Under the pieces are notes generated by a model. The model worked only from the letters and a program-made list of their open reading frames with translations. It was not told where the DNA came from and made no database searches. 64,000 nt of DNA from Buxus sempervirens (lineage: Eukaryota; Streptophyta; Magnoliopsida; Buxales; Buxaceae). The position numbers and the translations under genes are program-made. The stretch is taken from positions 28,448,766-28,512,765 of the forward strand of contig OX387184.1 of assembly GCA_947561395.2 (NCBI GenBank), written 5' to 3'. Positions 23,872-54,203 of the stretch are shown in pieces. Each line of letters starts with the position of its first letter. Positions within the stretch are counted from its first letter, which is position 1.

Positions 23872-24382
23872 GCCTCAGTCACAAAAAGTCCTTTCCAATC
23901 TATACTTTCTTTATCATCGATTTCTGATTTGATTGTGATATGAACTTTTTGGGTTTTCATTTGAATTTTTTGCTACACATATGTGATTATATTGTGAGAT
24001 TTATTTGAATATTTGTAAAACCTTGACCCTGATTATATCTTAATTATTAAGTTTAATTATTTAAAGTGAGATTATTAGACTAATTAAGTACTTGTGTTAT
24101 GAAGGTGAGGTGGATGTCAATCATGCTTGAGAATTTGGGAAAGCAAATTGAACTTTATTGAAGGTTATTAAGGTAAGCTTAATTAAGGTTATGTTTAAAT
24201 TTAAATTGGCTAAAGTATCCTCCAATTAGTTCTAGTGAATTGGATATCAAATTCTGAAAAATTGAAATTAAATGTGAAAATGAGCCTTGACGTGTGGACC
24301 TTGAATCGCCTGTTGAACTAAATTCTTCAGAAACCATTTGATAAAGGTTTAATGCCCAAATGTCCAATCTTAACATTCGCAC

Positions 24383-26789: not shown

Positions 26790-27335
26790 TGGGCCAAGTA
26801 TACCTAAGGTACATCCATATATTTCCTAAAGTACACCCATGTATTACCCAAGGTACCACCCAAGTATACCTAAGGTACATCCATGTATTTCCTAAAGTAC
26901 AATCATGTATTACCCAAGGTACCACCCAAGTATACCTAAGGTACATCCATGTATTTCCTAAAGTACAATCATGTATTACCCAAGGTACCACCCAAGTATA
27001 CCTAAGGTACACCCATGTATTACCCAAGTATACCTAAGCCAAACCCATATATTTCCTAAAGTACCCCCAAGTATTACCTAAAGTATACCCCTTGTATTAC
27101 CTTAGGTACCCCTCTTATATTACTAAGGTACCCCCATTATATAACTAAAGGTACACCTCTTATATAACTAAGGTACACCCCTTCTATAACTGAGGTACCC
27201 CTCTTGTATAACTAAGGTACAACCCCCCAAACATACATAAAGTATACCCCCTTGAATGGCTAAGGTAAACCTCTTGAAATGCCAAAGTATCCCTCAAATA
27301 ACACTAAGGTACCCCCCTAGTATGCCTTAGGTACA
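26790..27335 (+). repeat. Minisatellite with 66-bp higher-order unit
   Basis: A 66-bp unit begins at 26855, 26921 and 26987 (accacccaagtatacct...). It is built of shorter 20-22-bp units of the form 'aaggtacaccc..gtatta'. To the right it decays into single units to about 27335. Because 66 is divisible by 3, open frames run on both strands (26647-27027 minus and 26789-27037 plus). These are by-products. Confidence 0.9.
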
Positions 27336-33207: not shown

Positions 33208-33212
33208 ATGGT
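33208..33212. repeat. Target-site duplication, left copy (CATGG)
   Basis: Identical to 54204-54208 on the other side of the 20,991-bp element. Five bases is the usual size for Ty3/gypsy integrases. Confidence 0.95.
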
Positions 33213-34615
33213 GTGAGACATGGGAAAAAATCAATCTAATGATTTCCTCAATCATCACACGGGATTAAATTAAACAAAGAGTCGCCACCATTCAATTTAG
33301 GTGTGAATGGACACCAAAATATCAAATAAGCACAAAAGGCAATTTTTAGGGCAAAATATCCCTCCTAAAAAAAACAACCAGAGATGGGTAAGGGGATTAA
33401 GTTATGAACAGGGGAAGGTGTTAGGCACCCCTATTCATCCACACAAGGTGGTTGCCAGGTATTGTTCATGTTTAAAATAAAGGAAAAAGCTTGCTATAAA
33501 AATCACATAAAATCACAAAAAAAGGCAAAAATATATGGTTTTTTCATATGAATAGTCTGATTGATCCAGAACTTTCAAACATGATCATACCATTCCTAGG
33601 GTTTCATGATCAACACAAAATTGAGATAAAATCAAATAAAATCAATTTAAGGTGAAAAATCCAAAAATCTGGCTTCAAGTCAAAATTCTAGAAATCTAGA
33701 AAAATATGATTTTTATAAAATATTTCAGAATTTAACTTGAACAGTCCAGGACATAGATAAAGCCCAAATTTCACATTAAATCTAAAAATCAAAACCAAAA
33801 ATACCCACGTTTATGAAAAACATCAAAAGGGGAGAATTTAGACCGTAGGGTCTTCTCTCAATAATGAAAAACAATTTAAAAATCATCTCATGAAACCCTA
33901 GAATTTATTTTCAGGCTTCTAGATCCAGATCTACCATATTGATCATGATAAATCCAAGATCCTAGCCTAAAATCACAAAAATCACGAAAACAGTGCTGTA
34001 GGTGCAAAAGTGGCAAAAATCCAAATTTTATCAAAAATAGGGGATTTCATGCTATAAACATCATGGATTCATGTTATTTATTCAGATATATCATAAAAAG
34101 CATTAAAACATGATCAGGATATTCAAAACAGCCATATCTCACAAATTAGAGCACATGGGGGTCTACCCTACGGATCCACCTGTTCTCTTTTCCCCTAGTT
34201 CTCTCTTCACGTTTTACGGCTAGAGAGACTCTTGAGGTACTTAGAGATAGGTTTGGTTACACAAACACAATCAAAGGCTTTATTCTAAAAGAAAAAGAAA
34301 AAAACAGATATGGGGTTCTATTCTAGGGATCCACCTGTTCCCCTTTCCCCTAGTTCTCTCTTCACGTTTTACGGCTAGAGAGACCCTTGAGGTACTTAGA
34401 GACAAGTTTAGGAATACAAAAACAGATATGGCCTTATTCTACAGCAATAGAGATGATCCTATTACTTCTAGAATTGAAGACAGAAAATAAAAAAGGATAG
34501 GGGACTTACCTGGATTGAGCAGGCAGAGCAGCAGGGATTCCTTTCTCTTCTCTTGTAGCTTCTTAGAATTCCTTGGACTCAAAATTTCGTGGCCCTTAGC
34601 TAGAGGAGAGGGCCT

Positions 34616-34625
34616 CTATTTATAG
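34616..34625 (-). promoter_or_regulatory. LTR TATA box (left LTR)
   Basis: CTATAAATAG on the minus strand. The same sequence is in the right LTR at 53787-53796. Transcription would start about 30 bases further along the minus strand. Confidence 0.7.
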
Positions 34626-34825
34626 ACAAACACAGGGGTATGGTTGGTCCAAAAAGATATAGCCTGATCCTCAGGATAGAGAGAAAGTTGGAGATAATGC
34701 CCATCCATAGCCAACCAAGGTGGCCTCAGCGAATAAAAGACATAATCCGCTCGTTTAAAGATATATTGGACTTCAAATAAAGCTCGGAAATCGAGAGAAG
34801 GACAAAACTTGCACGTGTCTTTAAT

Positions 34826-34936
34826 GCCCGTAAATGATTTACGGTCCAATGGTGACCGTATTGGTACTACGGGCGCGCCTGCCCGTAGATTTTTTGCGGG
34901 CGAGATCGGCCCGTGAAGCCAATACGGGCAAAGCCT
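34826..34936. repeat. CCCGTA...TACGGGC hairpin array (left LTR)
   Basis: Four units: CCGTAAATGATTTACGG; CCGTATTGGTACTACGG; CCCGTAG...GCGGGC; CCCGTG...TACGGGC. They are separated by 8-12-base linkers such as GCGCCT, GAGATCGG and AAGCCTG. The array lies upstream of the LTR TATA box in the direction of transcription. Confidence 0.92.
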
Positions 34937-35032
34937 GTTCATTCCATTTTTAGGCTTTTTTGACCTGTTTTAAGCTCTAATTACATGTTTTTATTATTTT
35001 CTCATTTGGCAGTGCAATTTGGGGTGTCTACA

Positions 35033-35048: not shown

Positions 35049-35380
35049 TGGTAATTGGAATCAATTACAAGCAGAGAGCAAAAAGACCCGCCAATTGCAC
35101 TTTCTGAGATTTTTGTATAATCAATTGCACTTTGCAAGGATTAAAGGGATGATTTTTGAAAAAAATTGATTGTGGAAGATTTGCTAAGAAATCCCTCAGC
35201 TTAAGGGCCAAATCCTCCTCTCTCTTCTCACTGAGCACTTGTGGGCTATGAAGTGAGATTTGAGACAAAATTTTTAAACAAAAGTGGGTAATGTGGCAAT
35301 CCTTGCAACTTACAACTAATACAAACATTAATCTCCTAAAAATTGTGAGAAAATGATAAAATACGCAATTTATGGCTTCG

Positions 35381-35573
35381 CCCGTATTTGGCTTACGGAC
35401 ATACCTGCCCGTACAGAGTTCACGGGCGACCGGGACCGTAGTGCTTTCACGGGCTTCTGATGCCCGTACTGTTTTTACGGATTTTGAACTCCTTTTTAAT
35501 CTCGCGAACGCGACTTTTCCTCCTCTGCTCGCGTTTTGCCCTAATTCTCTGCTGCCCGTATCTTCTCTTACGG
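35381..35573. repeat. Hairpin array in front of antisense gene A
   Basis: Four adjacent units at 35381-35480 (CCCGTATTTGGCTTACGG first) and a fifth at 35555-35573 (CCCGTATCTTCTCTTACGG). The word is that of the LTR arrays, with different spacers. A pyrimidine-rich leader with ATCCGGCGAGC- and CTCTCTTCTT-type sequence overlaps and follows. Confidence 0.92.
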
Positions 35574-35845
35574 ACGTCTCTCTTCTTCTTCCACAATCCT
35601 CCGACGAACACTGTTCTTATCCGGCGAGCTTCTCATTTTTCCGGCGATTCTCACTGTTCTCCGGCAACTCTCTCGCGCGACCACTGCTCTCCATTAATTT
35701 TGGCGACTGTTCCTATTGCCGCGACTGTGATCAAGTCTTTGGCGTGCTTCATCCTTCCTCAATCGACTGTGGACACTCCTTGAAGTTTCGGTAGTGTAAG
35801 AACTCCTCATTTGATTGCCGATTTATTCTATCTCGACTGAATCCA
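35574..35845 (+). promoter_or_regulatory. Probable promoter-proximal leader of antisense gene A
   Basis: A pyrimidine-rich stretch with CTCTTCTTCTTCC and TTCTCCGGC words looks like a plant 5' leader with Y-patches. It ends at a perfect donor GTAAGT at 35846. No TATA box is obvious. A 140-codon frame (35372-35794) spans the hairpins and is probably not translated. Confidence 0.45.
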
Positions 35846-37003
35846 GTAAGTGGCCGCAATCCCCAACCATTTTGCAATTTGAGCTGCTGATTATTCTATA
35901 CCATGCTCATTGTATTCCATGCTCATTGCTTGCTCTTGATTGATATGAATTCCTCATGAATTGCTAGTTTATATTCAATCCATGCCCAATTTTTGCATCC
36001 TCAGTTTATGCTAATCAATGATATATCTAGACGAATCTGGTTCATGCACTAGCCTCTTGAGTGACCGAAATTCTCCTTATTTCTCAATTTCTTGTTATTT
36101 TGCTCTTGACTTCTGTTTCCACACTTAAGTAACAATTTCTGTTTCCACACTTAAGTAACCATCTGAATCATGCTGAGATTTCCTACCTGTATTGAGAATC
36201 CCATTGCTGGTATTACTATGCTTTACACAATTTCTCAATTTTTGCCTAATCCTTGACTGATTTTCTGCAATTGAGCTGATAGACTGTTTGCTTGCTTGTT
36301 GATACTTAATGATTCATATGTTACTTGCATTGATGCTATTGTACCAATTGACGCTTTTACATAAATCCCTCAATTTTTATGCTTTGATTTGGCACTTTTT
36401 CCTGATCTGTTTGATCTCACTTAATCATCTGCTACTTTGGCTTGATAATCAGTATAAGCCACTTGACTTTGAAACCAGATCCTTGAATGTTAATCTACTG
36501 ATCTGAACACTTGCTTGAAATGGCCACTCTTGAACTGACTTATGGCTTCTCCATGGATCTTTGAATCTTCTCTTGAATAAGCTTTGGTTTGTAAGCTTTA
36601 AACTCTGATTCAACCCCTTTTAATCATGCTTTGAAGGTCCTGAAATCAATCAAGATAAAACCATTAGGGATTATAAAATTTCAATCCTTAATACACCTTT
36701 CTTTTTTTTTCCTTTTTTTTTTTTTAGTCATATAAAAAGAATATACAAGTAGCCTTAACTCCCTGTATATAATTTTTTATATTTTCTTAATTGAAACAAA
36801 GACAATAAAAGGATGCAATAATTTTCTCAAGATATTTTTGAAGAAAGAAACTCCTTTAGTTGGCTTCTAATTTGATTGGGAGCTTTTTCCCTCATTCTTC
36901 ATTTTCCTTTTTCCTGCAAATCAATTAAACTTGGTTAGAATGATTAATCAAGCAAATAAAAATTTAAATAAATAATTAACTATCTCCCTGATTTGAACCG
37001 TAG
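35846..37003 (+). other. Probable 5' UTR intron of antisense gene A
   Basis: It opens with GTAAGT and is strongly T-rich. It closes with ATTAAC-like branch sequence and ACCGTAG directly against the ATG at 37004. Length would be 1,158 bp. Inferred from splice signals only. Confidence 0.5.
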
Positions 37004-39882
37004 ATGGCTCGTCTTCGATCAGCTTCTAGGGATCCTGCAGATGAGCCTTCCTCTTCGAGGGTTAGGCGAGATCCTGTTGATGTGGCCTCGTCTTCGAGGG
37101 CCGAGAGGGATTCCGATTCTGATATCCCAGATTTCCCTTCTGGGGATTCGCGTGAGGCGACCCCAGAGGTATACTCTAACCTTTCTGCAATTTCCTATCC
37201 TTTCCAAAATACATCTTCCTTATTCTTCCATTATTTTCTTTTAGCCAGCTGTTGAGGCTTCTGGCAGAGATAGGAGCCGTAGCAGACGCAAAGCTGGAGG
37301 CAGAGATGGAGGTCATGATGAGGGCCATAGAGGAGGCCGCAGAGGGAGCCGTGGCAGAGATGAGGCCAGGACCAGGGTTGAGATCCCTGAGGAGGTGGCT
37401 GCCCAGATTAGGGACACCGATCTTCTGCATGGTTTGAGGACTCATCCCTCAGCGTGCGTTAGGGCGGATATCCCTTTGGAGTATCCGATGTCCCACTATA
37501 GAGGGAGCTGGGCTAGCTTTACTAAATTTTTGAGAGCTTGCAGTTCGGCCTATCGTCGGGAGCTAGGATTGTACGGTTTCGGCATGTTTATCACCATCCC
37601 GGACGTTCGCTTGGATCGAGCCCTCATTGCAGCATTATTGGAGAGGTTTTTCCCAGAGACCTTGAGCTTCCACTTCCCAGATATTGAGATTGGGATCCGG
37701 CCTTCTGATTTCACGCTCATCACCGGGATTAGGATGATCGGTGATGTTATTCCTGAGATGACGATGCCAGAGGCTGATGAGATCGCTGGTTATCTTGGAT
37801 ATATTGTGCTGCCTCCAGAGGCCTGGGATCGGGGGAGAGCTAGATTGTCTCTGACATGGTTGAGAGAGACTTTCAGGAGGAGGCAGTTTGGCCAGCTTGC
37901 TGCCGGTGACCATGTTTTCCCATTTGCCTTCCGATTCCTCTTTCTATATATGATGGGATCCTGCTTCTTCCCAGAGGACACGACTTCAGTTAGTCCTCAC
38001 TTCTTGAGTCTTCTGGGAGATCTGCAGCGGGCGAGGAGGTATGCCTGGGGCCCGCTCATATTTGGTACTATTCTGGCTGGCCTGCGCCGATCAGTGAGCG
38101 GCCTCTCTACCTCCAGAGGGGCTGGAGTTGGGTGCAGGTTCTTCTGGCCCTTCTTGCAGGTGAACCTTATTTCCCTTCTTTTTCTTTATCTCTTTCTTTT
38201 TATCTCTCCTTTTATATTCTTCTGACTATTTTCTTCTTTCTTGCAGTTTTTTGCTAGGGTTTATATTCCCTATTTCCGCCCTACCTCTACGATGCCTGAG
38301 GAGACGTATCCCATGGCACTTAGATGGTGTCATGTAGAGCACGACTCTGAAAAGAGTCGTCCCAGGTCCGCCCGGGCCCACTTAGACAGGTTATACCGGT
38401 CTGAGGTAATCTTCTTTAATTCCTCTACTTCTTCTTTTCTTTTCTTCCTGGATCGCATATCTGATGTCCTGTTCTGTTTTTCAGCTATTTGTCCCCAGGA
38501 TGGAGGACATTCATGAAGTGCTGGCCCTGCAGGCTACGAGAGATGATGCATTTGTCCCTGACCAGAGACGACAGAGATACCAGTTCTTTATTGGTCAGCT
38601 GGGCAGCATCTGGTATTGCGGTGAGCGCTTCTTCTTTCAGCATGTGGGAGAGCCGCGGATTCCTGCCATCCCGCCAGATACTACTCCTTCCTATCCTCCT
38701 ATGCCTGTTGATCCTGCCCAGTTCTTAGACTGGACTGAGGCAGAGACATTATTAGAGGAGGGTGACTATGATGCCTGGTTCAGGCGAGCTTCTGTTGGGT
38801 GCCTCATGTCACCCATGCCTGTCCGTGACGGAGTCACGGAGATAGGAGGGGTAGTGATTAGGGCCTACGATACCACAGTATGCCTTCTTCCTTCTCTGAT
38901 CTTCTATTTCCATTTCATTAGCATTTTTTCTAACTTCTTTCTTTGCTATTTCAGGAGGCTCAGTTGGCAGAGATCAGGTCTCGCTATGCTGATTTAGAGC
39001 GCCAGCGTGATGCAGCGATCGCTGAGCGGGACGCCCTCTATATCACTATTTCCGATCTCCGGGGGCAGCTAGCCAGAGCCCAGGGCCAGGAGGGTCCATC
39101 TGATGCACAGGTTAATTTCTTCTTTTATTTCCATTCCTGCTTTTGTATTAGCCTATCTTGTTCTGACTGGATTTTTTTCTTAGTTTCAGGAGTACACAGC
39201 TGGCCCCTCTTCACCTGCTTCACCCGTGCCTATGCATTTCCGGGATGAAGTGTTTTCTGTGGCACGGGTGGAGTTTGTGACGTCTCCCAGTCCAGTAGAG
39301 GTTCCTGCAGCAGAGCCCGAGGTCGAGGCTGATATTGTACCTGCTGCTGAGGACGTGCCAGAGTCTGCCCCAGTAGCTGAGACTGCTCCTGCTGCATCTG
39401 CTGATATAGATATAGATTCGGCTATGGACGCCGCTGGGGTAGAGCCTACCGTGGAGACTGCAGTGATGGAGGAGGCTACAGCTGATCCTGTAGAGCCCGA
39501 GGTGGAGATGACTGCTACTGAGCCTGTGGAGCCAGAGGTTGAGGTACCTGGGACATCTGCTCCTGCTGGTCCTGCTATGGAGGCTGTAGAGGAGACGCCT
39601 GCTGCTGTTGATCCCTCTGCGGATTCTTCCCGTACAGAGTCTGATCCCGATTCTACGGGATATGTAGATACTTCAGGGTACGTCCCTCCTGATCATCGTA
39701 CTGCTGGCCTTGTGCCTTTATATATGTGGCATGATATTCAGTCTGTTTTGAGCAGGATGACGCGTAGCACAGCCCGTAATATTGTACGGCATGTCTTTGA
39801 GCGCAGGCGATCTACAGGCCGTGGTCGAGGCAGAGGACGAGGCCGTGGCCGTAGGGGTGGACCTGCATGGCCATTAGATTAG
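37004..39882 (+). CDS. Plant mobile domain (PMD) protein, antisense gene A of the Tat element, six exons
   Basis: Exons: 37004-37168, 37245-38159, 38247-38405, 38485-38877, 38955-39110 and 39190-39882. All five introns are 76-87 bp, GT...AG and phase 0, giving a predicted 826 aa with no internal stop. The N-terminus is rich in Ser, Arg and Gly (RDRSRSRRK, GHRGGRRGSRGR). The plant mobile domain (Pfam PF10536) covers roughly residues 115-480: LDRALIAALLERFFPET, FHFPDIEIGIRPSDFTLITG, YAWGPLIFGTILAGLRR, ALRWCHVEHD. Exon 5 is a coiled coil (LAEIRSRYADLERQRDAAIA). Exon 6 is acidic, Val/Glu/Pro-rich, and ends in an RGRGRGRG tail suited to RNA or DNA binding. Host PMD proteins (MAIN/MAIL family) act in gene and transposon silencing. 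Whether this one does is unknown. It lies opposite to gag-pol, so splicing of its own transcript would not remove its introns from the element's genomic RNA. Confidence 0.85.
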
Positions 39883-40090
39883 GATTCTTCCATGTACCTT
39901 TGTATTTTTTGGCAAAAGTGATGTAAACATTCATATATATAAAAGAAGTTTGATTTATTTCCATTTGTGTTCTTTCTTCTTTATTTACAGTATTTATTAC
40001 CTGATGAATGTTAAACAGGGACAGGTGAAGCTTAGGGAAACAAAGAAATTAAAACTTCTCACTTTTTTTTGCATTTTTTTTTCGAATAAA

Positions 40091-40218
40091 CCGTATTTAT
40101 ACTACGAGCAGGCTGTGTCCATAAAGTTATTACGGGTTTGCTTTGCCCGTGAAGTTTTCACGGTCAGGCGTGTCCGTAATTCCTATACGGGCGAGCCTTG
40201 CCCGTAATATAATTACGG
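40091..40218. repeat. Hairpin array in front of antisense gene B
   Basis: Five units: CCGTATTTATACTACGA, CCATAAAGTTATTACGGG, CCCGTGAAGTTTTCACGG, CCGTAATTCCTATACGGGC and CCCGTAATATAATTACGG. The array ends 25 bases before a TATA box. Confidence 0.93.
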
Positions 40219-40242
40219 AATTTACTGTCTTACGATTTTTTC

Positions 40243-40250
40243 TATATAAA
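40243..40250 (+). promoter_or_regulatory. TATA box of antisense gene B
   Basis: TATATAAA lies 92 bases before the ATG at 40342 and directly after the hairpin array. A start site near 40275 would give a leader of about 65 nt. Confidence 0.7.
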
Positions 40251-40341
40251 CTCCTAGGGAACATCATTGTGACACTTTTATTAATTGAAAAACTCCCTAA
40301 GCACGTCTTTTCTCGCTTTCCTTGGCTTCTTTGACGCTTCC

Positions 40342-42129
40342 ATGGCTTCCCCTACGCTGCTTTCTCCTGCCGTTGAATCTCCTCCTGCAAGACAACCTGT
40401 TAGATCAAAACCCCCTAATCTTACCAGGTACAATATTGTGGATTCCTTTTATGATAGATGGGTTAACTCCATGACCCTTGATGAGGAGATTCGTTGGGAT
40501 TCCATCCACTTAGGGCACATCCTACACCTCCCTAAAATTCCCTTTAAGTGGGAAATCATTGAAGCTTTGATTGGCCACTGGGTACCTGAGCTGAATCTCT
40601 TCCGTTTTGATGATAAAGAGATGACTCCCACCATAGAAGAGATTGAAACCATCCTTGGCCTTAGATTTTTTGAAAAAGTTGTGAACCCACCCCTAAAGCT
40701 TAGTTATAAAAAAGAGGCTTCCACTTTCTTGGGTATAGGGAAGAAGGACTTAGGAAATTCTGATGCCCTATTGACCTTGTCCAAGACCTTTTTGACTGAA
40801 AAACTTCTGAGGAGTAATGACAAGGACTCTAGGTTTAATGCATTGACCCTGGTAGTGGTCAATCAGCTGCTTTTTCCACGGGGTGATGACCAGGTTGACT
40901 TGGCTCTTATCTCAGTTATCTGTCAGGTTAGGGAACGCGAGAGGTTGGCCCCTATGATCCTAGCAGAGATATATCAGGCTCTTACTAATTGTTATTTCAG
41001 GAAGAAGAAACGCTTCCTTGCCTGCGCCCCTATCCTACAGGTAAAAAATATGCATATATATATTTTTTTTCTTTTTATTCTTTCTCTTTTTTTTTTCTTT
41101 TCTCTTTTTTTTTCTTTTTATTCTTCCTTTCTTTTTCTTTTCTTTTTTTCTTTTTTTCTTTTTCTTTCTCTCTTTTTTCTTTCTTTCTTTTTTTTTTCTT
41201 TTTGGAAATAAATTGAAATACTCCCTTTTCTGCAGCTTTGGTTGCTTGACCATTTTAGCCAGGTTGAAGAAATAACTCGCCGCTTCTTTCCAAGATTGAA
41301 AGTTCCTGTTTTGATGAGCAATAGGGGATGTCCTAACATCCAAGGTGGCAAGCAAGGCTGGTTCACTTTCTTGGGTACTCTCCAGGATGATCAAGTGAGA
41401 TGGCCTGGCACTTATCAGCCTACTCCAGAGACAGTGATTAGCTTTAGGGATAAAAACTTTCTGGCCCTAGCAGGCTTGAAATCTGCTGTTCTCTATCTTC
41501 CTTTGAGGGTTCTTCGGCAATTTGGAGCGACTCAGGGAATTATGATTCCCACAGGTTATGAGAGCTTTATAGGGCCACTTACATCAGCCACCATGGGGCT
41601 AAATGCTCAATTAATGAAAGAGTGGTCCTATGTTTGCTTTCTGCGGGGTCCCGTCTTTTCTGAGTCCCATGTGAAGGATTATCATTTCTGGATCAAAGAA
41701 CAGGTGCAGAGTCATGCCCCAGTACCAGAGGATCCTCCTGCAGTTCTTCCTCCTACTTATGAGGACATTCTGGAGTCAGAAAGGGCAACCCATAGGCGGC
41801 TTCATCAAATATGGGTACGGGAGGCTCAAGAACTTAGGATAAAAGTCCTTGTTCTGGAGAGGAAGCTTGAAGAGCAGAAGTCAGGCCGCATTGCCATGGA
41901 GAAGAAACTTGAAGAACAAAGGCAAGCTCGTCGTTTTGAAGTCCGAGTGATGCGGAAGAAGTATCAGGATTCCTTGGCTGACCTTAGGGCGTTGAAGAGC
42001 AAGCTTTCTTTTTCAGATGAGGTCATCTCCTTTTTGAGTGATCTTGATGCAGAGGGTGCTTCTGGAATCATTGCAACTCAGGCAGCTAGGATTAGGGAGC
42101 TTGAGGAGCAGTTAGGGAGTAGGGATTAG
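40342..42129 (+). CDS. DUF7745-like protein with C-terminal coiled coil, antisense gene B of the Tat element, two exons
   Basis: Exons 40342-41040 and 41236-42129 are joined across a 195-bp T-rich GT...AG phase-0 intron, giving a predicted 530 aa with no stop. The ATG is the first in the transcript after the TATA box at 40243. The N-terminal two thirds resembles the plant family catalogued as DUF7745, a relative of the plant mobile domain: LGHILHLPKIPFKWEIIEAL, LFRFDDKEMTPTIEEIETIL, LQLWLLDHF across the splice. From about residue 385 to the end it is a charged coiled coil (LERKLEEQKSGRIAMEKKLE) finishing RIRELEEQLGSRD. Function is unknown. The gene is convergent with pol, about 650 bp away, and tandem to gene A. 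Confidence 0.82.
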
Positions 42130-42821: not shown

Positions 42822-45800
42822 CTAAGGAAAATCCTTCCCATCCATTTCTGTTAAGATGAGAGCACCTCCTGATAGGACCTTCTTGACTATATAAGGCCCT
42901 TCCCAATTTGGTTTGAACTTTCCACGAGGATCTTCCAAAAAGGGTAAAATCTTTTTTAATACCAAATTTCCTTCTTGGAAAGTTCTGGGCTTTACCTTCT
43001 TATTGTAAGCCCTGGCCATCCTCCTCCGATATAATTGGCCATGACTAAGTGCCTTCAAACGTTTTTCTTCTATTAAATTGAGTTGATCATGCCTAGACTG
43101 TATCCATTCAGCTTCTTCTAATTCAGCTTCCATTAGTACTCTTAGTGAAGGTATTTCCACTTCCACTGGTAAAACTGCTTCCATTCCATAGACTAAGGAG
43201 TATGGGGTTGCCCCTGTAGAAGTCCGGATTGAGGTTCTGTAAGCATGTAGAGCAAGTGGCAGCATTTCATGCCAATCTTTAAAACTCACTACCATTTTCT
43301 GAATAATCTTCTTTATATTTTTATTCGCTGCTTCCACTGCCCCATTCATCTTTGGTCTGTAAGGCGCTGACTTGTGGTGGGTAATCTGAAATTGTTCACA
43401 CATCTTCCTCATGTCTTTGTTCTTAAGGTTTGAAGCGTTGTCTGTTACTATGGCACTTGGCAAACCATAGCGGCAAATGATGTTGTGCTTCAAAAACTTA
43501 AGAACATGGCTACTCGTGATGTTTGCATATGAAGCTGCCTCTACCCACTTGGTGAAGTAATCAATTGCTACAAGTATAAACCTGTGTCCATTTGATGCCT
43601 TTGGAGAGATCATTCCAATGACATCTATACCCCACATAGAAAAAGGCCACGGAGATGTCATACTGTGTAATTCACTTGGGGGTGCATTCTTGTTATCTGC
43701 GTACACTTGGCATAAATGACACCTTTTAACGTGCATATAGCAATCATGCTCCATAGTTGACCAGTAATATCCCAATCGCAGGATCTTCTTGGCAAGCATA
43801 TGCCCATTCATATGGGGTCCACACACTCCTCCATGTACCGTTTCAACTATCCTTTCTGACTCATTCTTTGCAACACATCTAAGTAGTATATCATTATGTG
43901 ATCTTTTGTACAACTGCCCACCACTTAGTAAGAACTGTCCTGCCAGCCTCTGTATTGTTCTTTTCTCTGTAGAGGTGACATTTTCTGGTAAAGTTCGATC
44001 CTTTAGGAAATTCTTAATGTCTTGAAACCATGGCACTTCTTCTTCTGGGGTTTCTTCTAGAACAAGGCAGTAAGCTGGTTCATCTCTGACTTCAATTTCC
44101 AATGGTCTAATATCAACCCCTTCTGGCATACTGACCATTGAAGCCAATGTTGCCAGAGCATCTGCAAACTGGTTTTTGGCCCTTGGCATATAATTGAAGG
44201 AAATTCGAGTAAACCTGGTGCTTATTTCTTCCAAATATTGGTGATAGGGGATCAATTTGTGATCCTTGGTTTTCCATTCGCCAGTTGTTTGGAAGATGAT
44301 AAGACTCGAATCCCCATATACGTCAAGTTCCTCTACTTCATGATCTAAGGCTGCTTGCAACCCAATTATGCATGCTTCATACTCTGCTATATTGTTCGTG
44401 CATTGAAACCTTAACTTCACTGCGATTGGGATATGTGCCCCATCTGGCTTGATCAGAACAGCCCCTATTCCATTTCCATTCATATTGGCGGCCCCATCAA
44501 AAAACATTTGCCATGAGCTTTCACCTTCTTCCTCTTCAGCAAACAGGATTGCCTCATCAGGGAAGTTGGTCTTTAAGGGTTGGTATTCTGGTAAAGGGTG
44601 TGCGGCTAAGTGATCTGCAATAGCTTGACCCTTAATGGCCTTCTGTGTGATATAGGTGAGGTCAAATTCAGAGAGTAACAACTGCCACTTTGCTGTTCTG
44701 CCAGTTAAAGCTGGTTTCTCAAATAGATACTTCAAAGGGTCCATGCGGGATATCAATAAGGTGGAATGACTAAGGAAATAATGCCTTAGTCTCTGAGTTG
44801 CCCATACTAAAGCACAACAAGTCTTTTCCAAAGGGGAATACTTTGCTTCATATTCTGTAAATTTCTTACTCAGGTAGTAAATCGCCCTCTCCTTTCTGCC
44901 TGTATCGTCATGCTGTCCTAAGACACACCCCATTGATGTCTCCAAAACAGACAAGTATAGGATTAGTGGCCTTCCTGGAGTTGGTGGTACTAGCACAGGT
45001 GGGTTTAATAAGTATTCCTTTATTGTGTCAAAGGCTTCTTGGCACTCATCATTCCAGACTGTCGGGTTATTCTTTCTTAGAAGTTTGAAAATTGGTTCAC
45101 AGATAGCGGTGAGCTGTGCTATGAACCGGCTTATGTACTGAATCCTCCCAAGAAAACCCCGAACTTCCCTCTCGGTTCTAGGTGATGGCATTTCAATGAT
45201 GGCTTTAGCTTTAGCTGGGTCAATCTCAATTCCCCTTCTGCTTACTATAAAACCCAATAATTTTCCTGATGTAGCCCCAAAGACACACTTAGCAGGGTTA
45301 AGCCTTAGACTGTATTTCCTAAGCCGGTCAAATACCTTCTTCAAGTTGATCAAGTGGTCTTCTTCCTCACATGATTTGGCTATCATATCATCCACATAAA
45401 CCTCCATCTCCTTATGGATCATATCATGGAATAAGGCTGTCATGGCCCTCTGGTAGGTTGCCCCAGCATTCTTAAGTCCAAATGGCATGACAGTGTAGTG
45501 GAAGGTACCCCAAGGGGTGATAAAGGCTGTCTTCTCTTGGTCTTCCTTAGCCATCTTAATCTGATTATACCCAGAAAACCCATCCATGAATGAGAATAGA
45601 CTATGTACAGCGGTGTTATCCACCAAGATGTCTATGTGTGGAAGTGGAAAATCATCCTTTGGACTTGCCTTATTCAAATCTCTATAATCTACGCACATTC
45701 TGACCTTTCCATCCTTCTTTGGTACTGGCACTATATTTGCAAGCCATTCGGGGTATGTGGACACTGCTAAGAATCCAGCTTGGAATTGCTTAACCACTTC

Positions 45801-45962
45801 ATCTTTAACCTTCAATGTCCATTCAGGTTTTAACCTTCTCAGTTTCTGCTTAACTGGCTTAGAGTCTGGTAGAATGGGTAGCCTGTGCACCACCATATCT
45901 GTGTCTAACCCCGGCATATCCCGATACGACCATGCAAACACATCTTCATAATCAGCCAAAAA
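42822..45962 (-). CDS. pol: pol: reverse transcriptase, two RNase H domains, integrase
   Basis: About 1,046 codons are open after the TGA at 45963. Residue numbers below count from codon 45959-45957. RT covers about 40-240, with VPKKDGKVRMCVDYRDLN, MPFGLKNA and the active-site YVDDM at about 188-192. The gypsy RNase H follows (about 325-435) with a degenerate catalytic start (LYLSVLETS). A second, archaeal-type RNase H covers about 483-610: FFDGAAN, NNIAEYEA, YGDSSL and NQFADALA. Integrase has a zinc region with CHLC (747-750), a catalytic triad D779, D840, E876 (35 residues between the last two) and a GPY module (NWEGPY). This order is diagnostic of Tat elements. The reading frame stops at TAG 42822, but 12 further family-like codons lie beyond it. 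Confidence 0.93.
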   Translation of the reverse strand, partial: FLADYEDVFAWSYRDMPGLDTDMVVHRLPILPDSKPVKQKLRRLKPEWTLKVKDEVVKQFQAGFLAVSTYPEWLANIVPVPKKDGKVRMCVDYRDLNKASPKDDFPLPHIDILVDNTAVHSLFSFMDGFSGYNQIKMAKEDQEKTAFITPWGTFHYTVMPFGLKNAGATYQRAMTALFHDMIHKEMEVYVDDMIAKSCEEEDHLINLKKVFDRLRKYSLRLNPAKCVFGATSGKLLGFIVSRRGIEIDPAKAKAIIEMPSPRTEREVRGFLGRIQYISRFIAQLTAICEPIFKLLRKNNPTVWNDECQEAFDTIKEYLLNPPVLVPPTPGRPLILYLSVLETSMGCVLGQHDDTGRKERAIYYLSKKFTEYEAKYSPLEKTCCALVWATQRLRHYFLSHSTLLISRMDPLKYLFEKPALTGRTAKWQLLLSEFDLTYITQKAIKGQAIADHLAAHPLPEYQPLKTNFPDEAILFAEEEEGESSWQMFFDGAANMNGNGIGAVLIKPDGAHIPIAVKLRFQCTNNIAEYEACIIGLQAALDHEVEELDVYGDSSLIIFQTTGEWKTKDHKLIPYHQYLEEISTRFTRISFNYMPRAKNQFADALATLASMVSMPEGVDIRPLEIEVRDEPAYCLVLEETPEEEVPWFQDIKNFLKDRTLPENVTSTEKRTIQRLAGQFLLSGGQLYKRSHNDILLRCVAKNESERIVETVHGGVCGPHMNGHMLAKKILRLGYYWSTMEHDCYMHVKRCHLCQVYADNKNAPPSELHSMTSPWPFSMWGIDVIGMISPKASNGHRFILVAIDYFTKWVEAASYANITSSHVLKFLKHNIICRYGLPSAIVTDNASNLKNKDMRKMCEQFQITHHKSAPYRPKMNGAVEAANKNIKKIIQKMVVSFKDWHEMLPLALHAYRTSIRTSTGATPYSLVYGMEAVLPVEVEIPSLRVLMEAELEEAEWIQSRHDQLNLIEEKRLKALSHGQLYRRRMARAYNKKVKPRTFQEGNLVLKKILPFLEDPRGKFKPNWEGPYIVKKVLSGGALILTEMDGKDFP

Positions 45963-45965
45963 TCA

Positions 45966-48617
45966 TATCATTTCATCCCGCTGTACCTCAGATAGACATA
46001 CGCCAATCTTCACTATTTTTGGGTCATCTTCGGTCCCTAGGTTGATTGATATGGTCTCTTCGATATTGGGTTGGACCCCCTTTTCATGACGCTCTAATTG
46101 ATATGTGATTTCTTTTGGAACGTCGTTTTCTTCGTCCTCGGTCTCTTCTTCAACCCCCATTAGGTCAAAGTCGAGCTCAAGGTCGAAGTCATACTCATCC
46201 TGATCCAATTCCGTTTGCTTATATGGTTCATAAATGGTTTGGACCTTTTTGAAAACTTTATCTTTTCTAGAAAAAACTGAAAAATCTTTTTGTGTTATTT
46301 GAGAGCCTTCTACAAAATCTTTCCCTGAAGACGAAGGCTCATTAAAGCCTTCAGGAAAAAGGGCATTCCACTTATAGAGTTTTTTTTTGGAAGCCATGTC
46401 TGTTTGCCAAACAAACGCGGCTTCAAAAGTAAGGGGAGTTTCCTCCCAATTATTCAGAATGAAAGAATCTGGGGCAGGGATACAAGCCTGCTCCTCAAGT
46501 TCAGGATCTGCATCTGAGATCACCAGTACTGGGTGAGTTGCATTGCCTGCTTCTTCGGTAGGGCCAGTTCCAGATGGAACTTCTACTGCAGCCCAATCAA
46601 TAAAAGGTAGCTCCTCTGCTACTTTTTCTTGCTTGCCTTCTGTCATGGCGAAGAACGCCCCTACGTCCTCAGAAAAGTCCTGCTCCTGTTCTGCCTGTAG
46701 CCCAGGCCCACCAGATGCTTGTGGAGGTGGAGGTGGAACACATGGTTGTATTGTGGAGGGTTTGGGTTTCTGGAATGGGTTGACATTGTAGTATGGGGGT
46801 TTGGCCTGATCCTCAGGAGGAGACAGCTGAATCAGGTGAGACAGCTTAGGAAAAGTTTCCCTGATGTGCGGGAATTTTATAGCTTCTATCTGCCCCTGAC
46901 TTTTCCATTTCCTTGGCTTGGACCCCAATCCTGCTCTGTGAACCATATTCTTAACCTGTACTGGTTCTATCCTTCCTTGTAGGTTAACCCCTAGACCTTT
47001 TCCAGGGTGAAAGTTGTACTTTTCTAGCACATTTTTGACCATTCTCTCAGCACAGGTCAACTTTCCTTCTTTTTCCTGATACCCCCCAGGTATATAATTC
47101 ACAGCTTCAAATTGAAAAGAGTGATATGTCAACTTATCTGCAGTCATTTCCATGCTAATACAGGGTACATCAGGGGACCACATGGGGGGAACCAAATTTT
47201 CCGCCAGGACGGTAATCACCTTTTGCCCTCTAATGTATTTGACTCTCTGGTGGAGGGTAGATGGTATGGCCCTAGCCGTATGAATCCACGGCCTTCCTAG
47301 GAGTAGGTTGAAAGCCGCAGGTATATCCATCACTTCAAATGTGATGTTGAAAATATACGGTCCAATTGTGACCGGCAGTTCAACCTCCCCTAGGGAGTGC
47401 GTTTTAGAGCTGTCAAATGCTCTTATGATTCTTCCATTTTGCTTTATTTTGTTTCGCTCCAGATTGAGCTTAACAAAGGTTACTAACGGGCAGACATTGA
47501 GGGCTGACCCATTATCAATCAAGACCCGGGCTATCATGCAACCCTTACTGAGCACAGCAATATGCAATGGGTCAACATGATGGTATCCTGCTAGACTAAT
47601 TTCAGTTTCAGAAAAGGTTATGACATTATGGGATAAAATTTGACCAACCATCCGGCCTAGTTGGTTTGGTTCAATGTTTTTAGGCACATGGGCCCCCTGG
47701 AGTATCCTTAACAAGGAGTCCCTATGTTTTTCTGAATTTAACAATAGGCCCAGTATTGAGATCTGGGCAGGGACTTTGTTCAATTGCTCGAGGACATTGA
47801 ACTCACTCTTTTTTATTACCTTCATGAGGTCAGCAGCCTCACTGTTAGTTACCTGAGGGGTCTCCTCCCCTACCTTGGCCTTTCCTTTATTTTTTTCGTC
47901 TTCTTTCTCCCTCTCTGTTTCTTTCTGTTTTTCTTCCACCCCTACACACTTTCCTGACCTCATCATAAGGTTTACTTCTTCCTTGCTTTCAACTGCAGGG
48001 CATGTAGTGGTAAATGCTTCACTGTAGTTCCATGGTACAGCCGATTCAATGTAGGAAGGTTTAGGGACGTTTACCACCAATGGGGGAAGTTTGGACTTGG
48101 CAATGGAAGTCTGAGTAATAGGAACATTAACAACCAATGGAGGAAGTTGTTTTGGTTGGGGGTTTGCAGAAGTGACTGATGCACTAAGGGGGTCACAATT
48201 TATGACCAATGGTGGCTTAGACTGAATGGGCGGAGTAAAAGTGGATGAATGGCAATTAATGACCAAAGGTGGCTTGGTGATGTTCATCTGGGCCATGAGG
48301 GATGAGACCCGGTCCAAAGATGAGCTAATGTTCTTTGCAGCACTATCATTCCCCTTTGAAATCATATTTATTTCTTTGCCTTCACTTCTCCTGTCAAAAT
48401 ATACTTTGACCGTTGTCCCTATGGGAGCAATTAATTGAGATGGGTCAAAGGTTATTTTGTCAGAAGAGATGACTCCTATGACATTAGATGGGCCTGCCCC
48501 GTGATGCTGGGGCAGTGGGTTTTGTCCAATATCGGTTCTTGGAGGATTGGAAGCCCCTGTATTGAAAGACAGGGTATTCTGGTCTAGTAAATCCTGAATA
48601 GCATGTTTCAAAGGCCA
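45966..48617 (-). CDS. Gag C-terminal/linker, aspartic protease and G-patch-like segment
   Basis: About 884 codons are open between two in-frame TGA stops. After a low-complexity linker with repeated 'PPLVVNV/INC' phrases comes a retropepsin: VLIDNGSALNVCPL (catalytic DNGS in place of DTG/DSG, as often in this lineage) and LLLGRPWIH. A G-patch-like stretch follows (KYNFHPGKGLGVNLQG, then HRAGLG). An acidic tail ends in LSEVQRDEMI before the TGA at 45963. The protease would cut the polyprotein. Codon use and lack of gaps suggest a recently functional sequence. Confidence 0.85.
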
Positions 48618-49340
48618 TCACTTGTCTGTAGGGTGCCCAGGTGCACCCATATGGTAATCGCAAGTGGTGGAGGGGTCAAAATTTCTCCCCTTAGATGCAT
48701 TCGGATTAGGTTCTCTTAAGGTGATATACCCTCCTTGCAATAAAGTGGGCAGCAATTGAGAGGGAGTCATTGGAATAGGGGTGAAAACCCTATTTCTCCT
48801 TGCTGCAAAATAGGCGTCCTTTTCCTCTTTGGTAAAAACCCTTTTTTGGTCTGAAGGTGCTGCTGGAACATTGACCCTCATAGGGGCCTGGGTGGATGGA
48901 GATGGAGTAGGAAAATGAGCAGGTACGTTGATTTGTATGGGCTTGTTAGGGCCAGATGGTGGCTGTACCATGTTTACCTCACCCTCCTTCTTGTTCCCAT
49001 TCTTTTTTGTCCCGCTTCCTTTCTTTAGGTTGGGGTCCTGCTGGCTTACCATGGCAGAGTGGTCAATTATTTTACCTGACCTGATCCCATCTTCTATTCG
49101 GTCAGCCACTTGAACCAAAGCTGCAAAATTGGTGGTGGTCTGACCCACCAAGTGGCTGTAGAATGGTTGACCCAAAGTGCTTATGAAAGTAGAAATCATT
49201 TCCTGTTCTAGCATGGGTGGCCTGACCTGGGAGGCCGTCTCCCTCCACCTCTTGGCATATTGCCTTACAGTCTCTTCCCTTCCTTTGCTCATTCTCATGA
49301 CGTCGTACCTATCTGGCATGATCTCTGAATTGAACCGGTA
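48618..49340 (-). CDS. gag: Gag, central and zinc-knuckle region
   Basis: The segment contains the retrotransposon gag core (GREETVRQYAKRWRETASQV, then a LVGQTTTNFAALVQVADRIE stretch), a lysine-rich linker, and the start of a zinc-binding CDYH...H motif whose last cysteine position is the TGA stop at 48618. Gag forms the virus-like particle and binds RNA. It is separated from the upstream Gag part by the in-frame TAA at 49341. Confidence 0.85.
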   Translation of the reverse strand, partial: YRFNSEIMPDRYDVMRMSKGREETVRQYAKRWRETASQVRPPMLEQEMISTFISTLGQPFYSHLVGQTTTNFAALVQVADRIEDGIRSGKIIDHSAMVSQQDPNLKKGSGTKKNGNKKEGEVNMVQPPSGPNKPIQINVPAHFPTPSPSTQAPMRVNVPAAPSDQKRVFTKEEKDAYFAARRNRVFTPIPMTPSQLLPTLLQGGYITLREPNPNASKGRNFDPSTTCDYHMGAPGHPTDK

Positions 49341-49343
49341 TTA

Positions 49344-49865
49344 AGCCAAGAAGGCATCGGCTAGGTCCTTCCATCTTTTGATCTTCCCATGGTCCAGAGT
49401 GGCGAACCATCTTAATGCGGTTCCTGTCAGGCTCCTTTGGAAAAGTTGGATCAAGATACCCTCATCCTGCCCGAACTGGCATAGGGCACCGCAATACAAC
49501 TTTAGGTGGCTCATGGGGCAACCAGTGCCATCATACTTGTCCAAGTCTGGGCACTTAAACTTAGCCGGCAGGTTAACATTGGGGTATAGGCACAGGTCTT
49601 CAAAATTGGTGCCTCCAAAGTTGTTTACCCCTTTGACTTCCCTAAGTTCATCTTGGATCATTTCTAGCTTATGCGTGAACTTTCTTTCAACCTCCTCCCT
49701 TATCCTTTCCTTTTCCTTAGCCTTGTTTGATTCAGCTGTCTCATCCCTGGTCAGTATAGGTTCAGGGGTGGGTTCATAGACGGGTTCAGGAGTTGGTTGC
49801 ACTGGAGGTGGAACGTTGACTTGGGGTGGAGGTGCAGGGTTGGATGTGGATGCCTGGTTCTGGGC
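49344..49865 (-). CDS. gag: Gag, N-terminal half
   Basis: Open between TAG 49866 and TAA 49341. It has a proline-rich start, a charged helix (EKERIREEVERKFTHKLEMI) and the gag-core entry (LCLYPNVNLPAKFKCPDLDK, then YDGTGCPMSHLKLYCGAL). No genuine ATG starts this piece, as expected for a broken longer frame. Confidence 0.8.
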
Positions 49866-49868
49866 CTA

Positions 49869-50093
49869 CATTTGTTGGGCCTGCACTTGTTGGGCCTGTA
49901 CTGACAGTATGTTCTCTAGCATTCGGGCTAGTCCTGCCACTTGTTCTTGGAGTAGAACAACATCTGGATGAGGAGCATCAACTTCATCTTCAATGGGATT
50001 CATGGCTCGAGCTCTTGATCTGGTTACAGGAGCTATGATTGCGAGTGTATTAGTACCTGGATACAAGATAAAGGAAAAGATATCAATGCTCAA
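49869..50093 (-). CDS. gag: Gag N-terminal leader piece before first stop
   Basis: About 75 codons in the same frame, with TRSRARAMNPIEDE and a short coiled coil (LLQEQVAGLARMLENIL), end QQM before TAG 49866. The true start could be the ATG at 50093 or the internal ATG of RARAMNP. Tat gag proteins often begin near such a TRSRAR phrase. Confidence 0.65.
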
Positions 50094-50295
50094 TTAATCT
50101 CATTTACATGCCTAAGAATGCCTATGTGCAAGCTGGGTGAACACGAGTTTGGATTTTTCTTTATTTGCTTCTTTTTTCTTTTTTTTATTTATTTATTTTA
50201 TTTTTATTTTTTTTTTGTTTTATTTCTTTTTTTTATTTTTTTTGAATTGAATTGTTGGAATATTCTAGGGCTTCCAACAGGTCCCACAAAAGAGA

Positions 50296-50872
50296 GAAAG
50301 ATCTGAAATTCAAAGGCTTTCAGAGGCCCGGGGGGTTTTTGAAAAAAGGTCTGAAATTCAAAGGGTTTCAGAAGCCCAGGGATATTTTTGGAAAAGGTCT
50401 GAAATTCAGAGGCTTTCAGAGGCCCAAGGATTTTTGATAAAAGTCTGAAATTCAAAGGCTTTCAGAGGCCCAGGGGTTTTTTTTGATAAAAGTCTGAAAT
50501 TCAAAGGCTTTCAGAGGCCCAAAAGAAAAAGGTCTGAAATTCAAAGGCTTTCAGAGGCCCAAAAGAAAAAGGTCTGAAATTCAAAGGCTTTCAGAGGCCC
50601 AAAAGTTCTGAAATTCAAAGGCTTTCAGAGGCCCGGAGTTTTTTTGAGAAAAAGTCTGAAATTCAAAGGCTTTCAGAGGCCCAGGGTTTTTTGAGAAAAA
50701 GTCTGAAATTCAAAGGCTTTCAGAGGCCCAGGGATTTTTTGAAAAATCTGAAATTCAAAGGCTTTCAGAGGCCCAGGATTTTTTTGAAAAATCTGAAATT
50801 CAAAGGCTTTCAGAGGCCCAAGAGTTTTGAAAAAGTCTGAAATTCAAAGGCTTTCAGAAGCCCAAGGAACCT
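50296..50872. repeat. Minisatellite of 13 units in the element's 5' leader
   Basis: Each unit is CTGAAATTCAAAGGCTTTCAG plus AGGCCCAGG and a variable T/A-rich spacer, 38-46 bp in all. The unit core is itself an inverted repeat (CTGAAA...TTTCAG). It lies between gag and the primer site, so it is in the genomic RNA. Confidence 0.95.
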
Positions 50873-51022
50873 TTCTCTATTTTTTTTTTTTTAATATATA
50901 TATATATTTTTTGTTTTTTTTTTTGAAGCATTTTATTCAAACTTGTTTCCCTTTATCATTATTTAAAGGTTAAATGAAGATTTTAGTGGGAAAAACTGAT
51001 TAAAGTTGAATATTCCGAGAAA

Positions 51023-51160
51023 ACCGTATACACAGTACGGTCCAGCCCTGCCCGTATTCAAATTACGAGCAAGCTGTGACCGTATGGAAAACACGGGCGA
51101 GCCTAGCCCGTATAACTAATACGGGCAAGCCCAGCCCGTGTACTAAATGCGGTTTTACGG
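51023..51160. repeat. Hairpin array in the 5' leader between primer site and gag
   Basis: Five units: CCGTATACACAGTACGG, CCCGTATTCAAATTACGA, CCGTATGGAAAACACGGGC, CCCGTATAACTAATACGGGC and CCCGTGTACTAAATGCGG. Linkers such as GAGCCTAG and AAGCCCAG match those of the other arrays. Confidence 0.93.
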
Positions 51161-52381: not shown

Positions 52382-53786
52382 GTTGTGAGACATGGGAAAA
52401 AATCAATCTAATGATTTCCTCAATCATCACACGGGATTAAATTAAACAAAGAGTCGCCACCATTCAATTTAGGTGTGAATGGACACCAAAATATCAAATA
52501 AGCACAAAAGGCAATTTTTAGGGCAAAATATCCCTCCTAAAAAAAACAACCAGAGATGGGTAAGGGGATTAAGTTATGAACAGGGGAAGGTGTTAGGCAC
52601 CCCTATTCATCCACACAAGGTGGTTGCCAGGTATTGTTCATGTTTAAAATAAAGGAAAAAGCTTGCTATAAAAATCACATAAAATCACAAAAAAAGGCAA
52701 AAATATATGGTTTTTTCATATGAATAGTCTGATTGATCCAGAACTTTCAAACATGATCATACCATTCCTAGGGTTTCATGATCAACACAAAATTGAGATA
52801 AAATCAAATAAAATCAATTTAAGGTGAAAAATCCAAAAATCTGGCTTCAAGTCAAAATTCTAGAAATCTAGAAAAATATGATTTTTATAAAATATTTCAG
52901 AATTTAACTTGAACAGTCCAGGACATAGATAAAGCCCAAATTTCACATTAAATCTAAAAATCAAAACCAAAAATACCCACGTTTATGAAAAACATCAAAA
53001 GGGGAGAATTTAGACCGTAGGGTCTTCTCTCAATAATGAAAAACAATTTAAAAATCATCTCATGAAACCCTAGAATTTATTTTCAGGCTTCTAGATCCAG
53101 ATCTACCATATTGATCATGATAAATCCAAGATCCTAGCCTAAAATCACAAAAATCACGAAAACAGTGCTGTAGGTGCAAAAGTGGCAAAAATCCAAATTT
53201 TATCAAAAATAGGGGATTTCATGCTATAAACATCATGGATTCATGTTATTTATTCAGATATATCATAAAAAGCATTAAAACATGATCAGGATATTCAAAA
53301 CAGCCATATCTCACAAATTAGAGCACATGGGGGTCTACCCTACGGATCCACCTGTTCTCTTTTCCCCTAGTTCTCTCTTCATGTTTTACGGCTAGAGAGA
53401 CTCTTGAGGTACTTAGAGATAGGTTTGGTTACACAAACACAATCAAAGGCTTTATTCTAAAAGAAAAAGAAAAAACAGATATGGGGTTCTATTCTAGGGA
53501 TCCACCTGTTCCCCTTTCCCCTAGTTCTCTCTTCACGTTTTACGGCTAGAGAGACCCTTGAGGTACTTAGAGACAAGTTTAGGAATACAAAAACAGATAT
53601 GGCCCTATTCTACAGCAATAGAGATGATCCTATTACTTCTAGAATTGAAGACAGAAAATAAAAAAGGATAGGGGACTTACCTGGATTGAGCAGGCAGAGC
53701 AGCAGGGATTCCTTTCTCTTCTCTTGTAGCTTCTTAGAATTCCTTGGACTCAAAATTTCGTGGCCCTTAGCTAGAGGAGAGGGCCT

Positions 53787-53796
53787 CTATTTATAG
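53787..53796 (-). promoter_or_regulatory. LTR TATA box (right LTR, drives the genomic RNA)
   Basis: CTATAAATAG on the minus strand, about 200 bases after the hairpin array in the direction of transcription. Confidence 0.7.
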
Positions 53797-53996
53797 ACAA
53801 ACACAGGGGTATGGTTGGTCCAAAAAGATATAGCCTGATCCTCAGGATAGAGAGAAAGTTGGAGATAATGCCCATCCATAGCCAACCAAGGTGGCCTCAG
53901 CGAATAAAAGACATAATCCGCTCGTTTAAAGATATATTGGACTTCAAATAAAGCTCGGAAATCGAGAGAAGGACAAAACTTGCACGTGTCTTTAAT

Positions 53997-54107
53997 GCCC
54001 GTAAATGATTTACGGTCCAATGGTGACCGTATTGGTACTACGGGCGCGCCTGCCCGTAGATTTTTTGCGGGCGAGATCGGCCCGTGAAGCCAATACGGGC
54101 AAAGCCT
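53997..54107. repeat. CCCGTA...TACGGGC hairpin array (right LTR)
   Basis: Same four units as 34826-34936. Confidence 0.92.
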
Positions 54108-54203
54108 GTTCATTCTATTTTTAGGCTTTTTTGACCTGTTTTAAGCTCTAATTACATGTTTTTATTATTTTCTCATTTGGCAGTGCAATTTGGGGTGTCT
54201 ACA

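Follow-up and report, generated by a model that had tools for sequence, protein, structure and literature searches.

Plant mobile domain (PMD) genes are already described in Gypsy retrotransposons. In the available text of the two reports, Gypsy-only PMD clades and PMD ORFs in Ogre are published (PMC5418596, PMC6317226), and a PMD extra ORF is given for 57% of Ogre elements (PMC6317226). The Gypsy-encoded PMDs form the separate clades PMD-A1 and PMD-A2, and the direction of transfer is left open in the portion of the phylogenetic study at hand (PMC5418596). The PMD proteins MAIN and MAIL1 function in transcription and in transposable element (TE) silencing (PMC5418596, PMC7156037). A second RNase H (aRH) between RNase H (RH) and integrase (INT) marks Ogre and Retand (PMC6317226), and the excerpts on Ogre give it an intron region of ~274 bp between gag-pro and RT. 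Many Tat elements carry extra ORFs in antisense orientation, and the passages available describe the role of these ORFs as unknown (PMC11963269, PMC7264820). Grande carries an antisense ORF with its own promoter, and the same 2020 review urged that antisense as well as spliced transcripts receive attention (PMC7264820). VANC of VANDAL21 is the precedent for a TE protein that acts through motif arrays in its own noncoding DNA (PMC5735166, PMC10398659).

The window analyzed here is a 64,000-nucleotide stretch of Buxus sempervirens DNA (contig OX387184.1), and it contains a Tat-clade LTR element with two PMD-family genes, A and B, antisense to gag-pol. The element resembles Ogre in its length, its aRH between RH and INT, and its possession of a PMD gene (PMC6317226). 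It differs in having two PMD-family genes per element, six introns in the antisense genes, and phased arrays. Retand also has antisense ORFs between pol and the 3' LTR together with internal tandem repeats (PMC11963269), whereas the element here is larger (21 kb) and its LTRs are longer (1.8 kb). TRP28 (PF04195), the antisense ORF mark of Retand, had no match in A or B up to an E value of 0.1. The locus shares with VANDAL21 the combination of a TE-encoded protein and short-motif arrays in TE noncoding DNA (PMC5735166, PMC10398659). The VANDAL21 motifs have the same orientation (PMC5735166), whereas the half-sites described below alternate and are candidate binding sites. New here are the phased half-site arrays in the LTR U3, upstream of A and B, and in the gag leader. 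VANDAL elements are DNA transposons, and VANC is not known to be a PMD protein. Among the literature matches listed, the available text holds no spliced antisense PMD gene pairs and no such arrays; the 2011 Steinbauerova survey may mention them.

The carrier element and its gag-pol frame

33212-54203, minus strand: Tat-clade LTR element, ~21 kb
33212-35032, minus strand: 3' LTR, 99.78% identical to 52384-54203 over 1821 columns
52384-54203, minus strand: 5' LTR, pairs with the 3' LTR; its outer flank bears the target-site duplication CATGG
42822-50003, minus strand: gag-pol frame with RVT_1, RT_RNaseH, RVT_3, and rve in order (Pfam)

The element is a young, recent insertion. An alignment of its LTRs over 1821 columns shows 3 mismatches and 1 gap (99.8% identity), and the 5-bp target-site duplication CATGG is found on both outer flanks. 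The PBS-like TGGCGACTCTGCTGGGGA, which may be of the tRNA-Arg type that characterizes Ogre, adjoins the inner end of the 5' LTR, and a PPT-like sequence is present in the element. Comparison of the A, B, pol, and gag-pro pieces with the whole window by tblastn gave 9 rows, none of them outside the element.

The order of the pol domains places the element in the Tat clade. In the pol piece, the RT_RNaseH match ends at residue 433, RVT_3 spans residues 488-606, and rve spans residues 773-870 (Pfam), so that a second RNase H sits between RNase H and integrase. The gag matches in the frame are weak (Pfam). The frame also encodes a G-patch domain (Pfam), which has been reported in plant Gypsy elements (PMC9289625). 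No intron region was found between gag-pro and RT; the frame runs straight through, interrupted by nothing other than individual stop codons. An Ogre-related orchid element likewise has no gag-pro/RT intron in the text available (PMC9289625). The element is filed as Tat clade, not Ogre, because it lacks this intron region. The first-pass annotation called it a decayed Tat retrotransposon. The RNase H order upholds the Tat assignment, whereas the near identity of the LTRs and the sharing of one frame by the domains found show that the word decayed misleads. Young but gag-pol defective is the better label.

The gag-pol frame is read from an in-frame ATG at 50003 to the terminal stop at 42822 and contains four premature stops (49866, 49341, 48618, and 45963). 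A fifth stop counted earlier is the terminal stop itself. Given how far the LTRs have diverged, 0.27 stops should have arisen since insertion, and the probability of at least four is 1.8e-4 (0.0026 for at least three). With the LTR count raised to its 95% upper limit of 8.77, these probabilities become 0.0085 and 0.045, respectively. There are more stops than the LTR age permits, which indicates that most of them probably predate the insertion. Barring LTR gene conversion or an assembly error, this gag-pol-defective copy was probably mobilized in trans, a result that supports the earlier suggestion that dead copies spread in this way.

Antisense genes A and B

37004-39882, plus strand: gene A, antisense to gag-pol, six exons, 826 aa
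37004-37168, 37245-38159, 38247-38405, 38485-38877, 38955-39110, 39190-39882, plus strand: gene A exons
38160-38246, plus strand: gene A intron 2, phase 0, position aligned with the gene B intron
40342-42129, plus strand: gene B, antisense to gag-pol, two exons, 530 aa
40342-41040, 41236-42129, plus strand: gene B exons
41041-41235, plus strand: gene B intron, phase 0, position aligned with gene A intron 2

The joined exons encode 826 codons plus a stop in gene A and 530 codons plus a stop in gene B, with no internal stops. All six introns (five in A, one in B) are GT...AG and in phase 0; they are 47-68% T and 19-35% GC, and the exons are 44-60% GC. Under a model with the dinucleotide composition of the exons, and uncorrected for the choice of splice sites, the log10 probability of a stop-free frame is -17.6 in A and -12.7 in B. 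The exon boundaries, codon counts, splice dinucleotides, and phases proposed in the first-pass annotation were all reproduced, and the gene structures predicted by reading the sequence are confirmed at the sequence level. The gene A ATG lies immediately 3' of an AG, and a 5' leader with an intron is possible. The interval 35483-37003 is CpG- and pyrimidine-rich after the array that precedes it and continues as a long stretch up to the gene A ATG.

The spliced products were compared with the Pfam profiles. Protein A matches PF10536 (PMD) at residues 166-412 (E 6.9e-23, 81.8 bits; gathering cutoff 34.9). Protein B matches PF24924 (DUF7745) with an E value of 1.3e-29 (103.8 bits; cutoff 26) and PF10536 with an E value of 2.9e-20 (73.2 bits; cutoff 34.9), and its DUF7745/PMD region spans residues 57-390. 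These scores exceed the cutoffs and identify A as a PMD protein and B as a DUF7745 plus PMD protein, in agreement with the earlier placement of both genes in the PMD family. The match in A crosses one of its five junctions, and the match in B crosses its sole junction. Exon 2 of A alone scores 62.8 bits for PMD, and exon 1 of B alone scores 72.9 bits for DUF7745, the larger part of the signal in each case. Exons 3-5 of A, which follow intron 2, have no Pfam match when taken alone, and exon 2 of B alone reaches 17.5 bits, under the 26-bit cutoff. Composition by segment shows that the C terminus of A is Arg/Gly-rich. The top heptad scores, from a crude score without a control, are located at residues 551-600 of A and 501-530 of B.

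A and B share PF10536 with MAIN/MAIL1, and published trees put MAIN/MAIL in PMD-C, apart from the Gypsy clades A1 and A2 (PMC5418596). The proposed derivation of A and B from the host MAIN/MAIL family is not established, given this separation in the trees. A protein search with B identified 15 relatives (8000 candidates scored) that are 22-29% identical where aligned; 14 have DUF7745 plus PMD, one has DUF7745 only, and 13 are named Solanum. The search with A, whole and by region, returned no relative, and its biased composition may have filled the candidate list. In IMG/VR, scans with B, with its family alignment, and with a pol piece gave no relative, and neither B nor the PMD region of A had a match among solved structures. 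The C terminus of one potato DUF7745 protein, P0011, matches the gag piece of the element (E 5e-4, a single comparison); P0011 did not match the next piece after the gag piece (best E 1.2). This similarity is a weak indication that B-type genes may sit in the sense orientation in other elements.

One intron position is common to the two genes. In the B-family profile alignment, the LQ just before intron 2 in A (residue 360) is matched to the LQ just before the B intron (residue 233), with a local alignment confidence of 3-4 on a scale to 9. A stricter alignment ends short of the intron, at residue 354 of A and residue 230 of B. The other four A introns have no counterpart in B. The aligned parts of A and B are ~20% identical (21% and 19% in two alignments), and an aligned intron at this level of identity probably goes back to a common ancestor and has persisted through many cycles of reverse transcription. 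The first-pass annotation attributed the persistence of the introns to a genomic RNA that reads the opposite strand. This one aligned phase-0 position, with its moderate to low local confidence, supports the idea that introns survive because the replicated genomic RNA is complementary to the antisense pre-mRNA.

Alternating half-site arrays

34826-34929: array of 8 half-sites in the 3' LTR (U3)
53997-54100: the same array in the 5' LTR (U3)
35380-35482: array of 8 half-sites, 1.5 kb upstream of the gene A ATG
40089-40220: array upstream of gene B, 10 half-site positions (40117 degenerate)
51022-51140: array of 9 half-sites in the leader between the PBS and gag
22228-23873, minus strand: related solo LTR with target-site duplication GCCTC and an array at 23665-23768

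The half-site TACGG(G/T/A)C recurs on alternating strands in 13-14-bp steps and forms chains of 7-9 at several sites in the element. The gene B array was found as chains of 2 and 7 that were joined by hand across the degenerate position, and a further half-site pair lies beyond the gene A array at 35554 and 35569. The longest chain in 100 windows simulated with a first-order Markov model was 1 (65 runs) or 2 (35 runs). A pattern scan allowing up to 3 mismatches, which counts palindromes on both strands, yielded 15 matches compared to 0.10 expected, and 12 of the 15 are in the element. Shorter steps are found in 5/17 convergent pairs and 0/21 divergent pairs, solo LTR included. Among the 35 half-sites of four arrays, with a single LTR included, the central G never changes and the preceding A and C each vary once; the search demanded a CG core, so the CG invariance is partly by construction. 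The first-pass annotation starts at 35381, which falls on the gene A array, a feature it did not describe. Three alternating half-sites with 14-bp steps are also located at 233-267, outside the element at the window edge, and are perhaps part of another element.

The half-sites are more alike between arrays than the spacers. In the register that maximizes overall identity, the 10 pairs of arrays have half-site identities of 0.76-0.92 and spacer identities of 0.25-0.62. The spacer value of 0.62 comes from the 3' LTR and the solo LTR, and the other nine pairs give 0.25-0.50. The solo LTR is 90% and 85% identical to the element LTRs in two parts. Between the 3' LTR and the solo LTR, 51/56 half-site positions are kept compared to 32/48 spacer positions (p = 0.003). 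The half-sites are not better kept than the rest of the LTR (1401/1526, p = 0.80) or the rest of U3 (263/302, p = 0.51) in this comparison. The half-site CpGs are kept in 8/8 cases versus 12/20 elsewhere in the LTR (p = 0.06, with CG required by the search).

The arrays differ in their distance from TATA-like sequences. The gene B array ends 22 bp before the TATA-like TATATAAA at 40243, and in the LTR ~200 bp separate the array from a downstream TATA-like box (34624, minus strand). We did not detect a TATA-like box close to the gene A array. TATA-like matches at 36672, 36731, and 36766 are 240-330 bp before the gene A ATG and >1.1 kb from the array, and they could be the real promoter of gene A. 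The gene A array may not be the core promoter of A, because it has no near TATA-like box and is 1.5 kb before the ATG.

Candidate roles for the arrays

A common array at both genes, in the LTR promoter region, and in the leader suggests one shared control switch. In the mechanism we propose, a young and probably trans-mobilized Tat-clade element that is Ogre-like in its PMD genes encodes two PMD-family proteins antisense in its 3' region. The arrays would be binding sites for one DNA-binding factor, and this single factor would control LTR (sense) and antisense transcription together. The likeliest regulators would be proteins A and/or B, which would activate related copies or counteract their silencing. 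The introns would be kept because the RNA that is replicated comes from the strand opposite to the antisense pre-mRNA. We favor this coupling of sense and antisense transcription through a shared factor, most likely the element's own A and/or B, only tentatively. Our best guess is a shared regulatory circuit, possibly a VANC-like anti-silencing one. The arrays in the LTR, in the leader, and upstream of both genes provide a concrete DNA target for tests of the A and B proteins and may link PMD proteins carried by TEs with PMD silencing in the host. A role for A and B as antagonists of TE silencing, raised in the first-pass annotation, is possible; the arrays would sharpen that idea and make it testable, and they do not prove it. 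A more specific version has the two antisense PMD proteins recognizing the arrays in the LTRs, the leader, and their own upstream regions and thereby reactivating related copies in trans, and we place it on the unlikely side. If it is true, reactivation would extend to copies with a dead gag-pol, and the protein family with which plants carry out silencing would have given rise, independently, to a VANC-like system.

A host transcription factor is nearly as likely as the A and B proteins to bind the arrays. The LTR and both antisense genes would then share one host activator, and other tasks would fall to A and B, for example nuclear import, packaging, or chromatin tethering. The proximity of the LTR and gene B arrays to TATA-like boxes fits a host factor, as does the short similar array outside the element, and nothing physically links A or B to the arrays. 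The lack of a TATA-like box near the gene A array lowers the odds of a switch operated by A or B and raises those of a host factor. The gag-leader array, however, is >1 kb downstream of the 5' LTR, an unusual yet possible location for a simple enhancer. The arrays might instead act in the genomic RNA as hairpins that serve as packaging or processing signals. Convergent half-sites are palindromic, and the leader, 3' internal region, and U3 in which the arrays are found should be included in the genomic RNA. This role is nevertheless very unlikely, because partner half-sites match no better than shuffled ones. The matches were 80/98 columns versus 81.0 in shuffles for 14 convergent pairs and 95/119 columns versus 96.2 for 17 divergent pairs. 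This absence of covariation favors protein binding to DNA over an RNA hairpin, and the position of one array next to an antisense TATA-like box also argues against hairpins.

The intactness of A and B is weak evidence of selection, because neutral sequence with the same history would be expected to gain only 1.9 stops in A plus B and would have none with a probability of 0.15. All four stops would fall in gag-pol by chance with a probability of 0.21. This contrast is not significant; the argument that intact A and B beside a broken gag-pol prove selection was rejected, and the stop distribution does not show the selection on A and B relative to gag-pol that had been claimed for them. Both probabilities are compatible with A and B being passengers, that is, ancestral Tat extra ORFs that have no present function and are intact because the copy is young. 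We consider passengers unlikely, because the PMD matches of both proteins and the DUF7745 match of B lie well over the cutoffs and bridge an intron, because B has 15 relatives, most of them named Solanum, at 22-29% identity where aligned, and because PMD is so frequent among Ogre elements (PMC6317226). It is scarcely credible that the introns of A and B are artifacts of exon picking. The gene models rest on sequence, and exons 3-5 of A do not score by themselves, but the open-frame probabilities, the two junctions bridged by domain matches, and the aligned intron position all argue for genuine introns.

The half-sites are unlike the PMD-associated DOWN motif CATGCAGTTT of the MORC1 promoter. 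A link to the DOWN motif was rejected, as the motif is not enriched in the window (7 matches compared to 6.0 expected). The gag leader also contains 13 tandem units at 50282-50874 that are 34-49 bp apart, each with a CTGAAATTCAAAGGCTTTCAG palindrome. A tandem repeat with 22-bp steps is located at 26794-27226.
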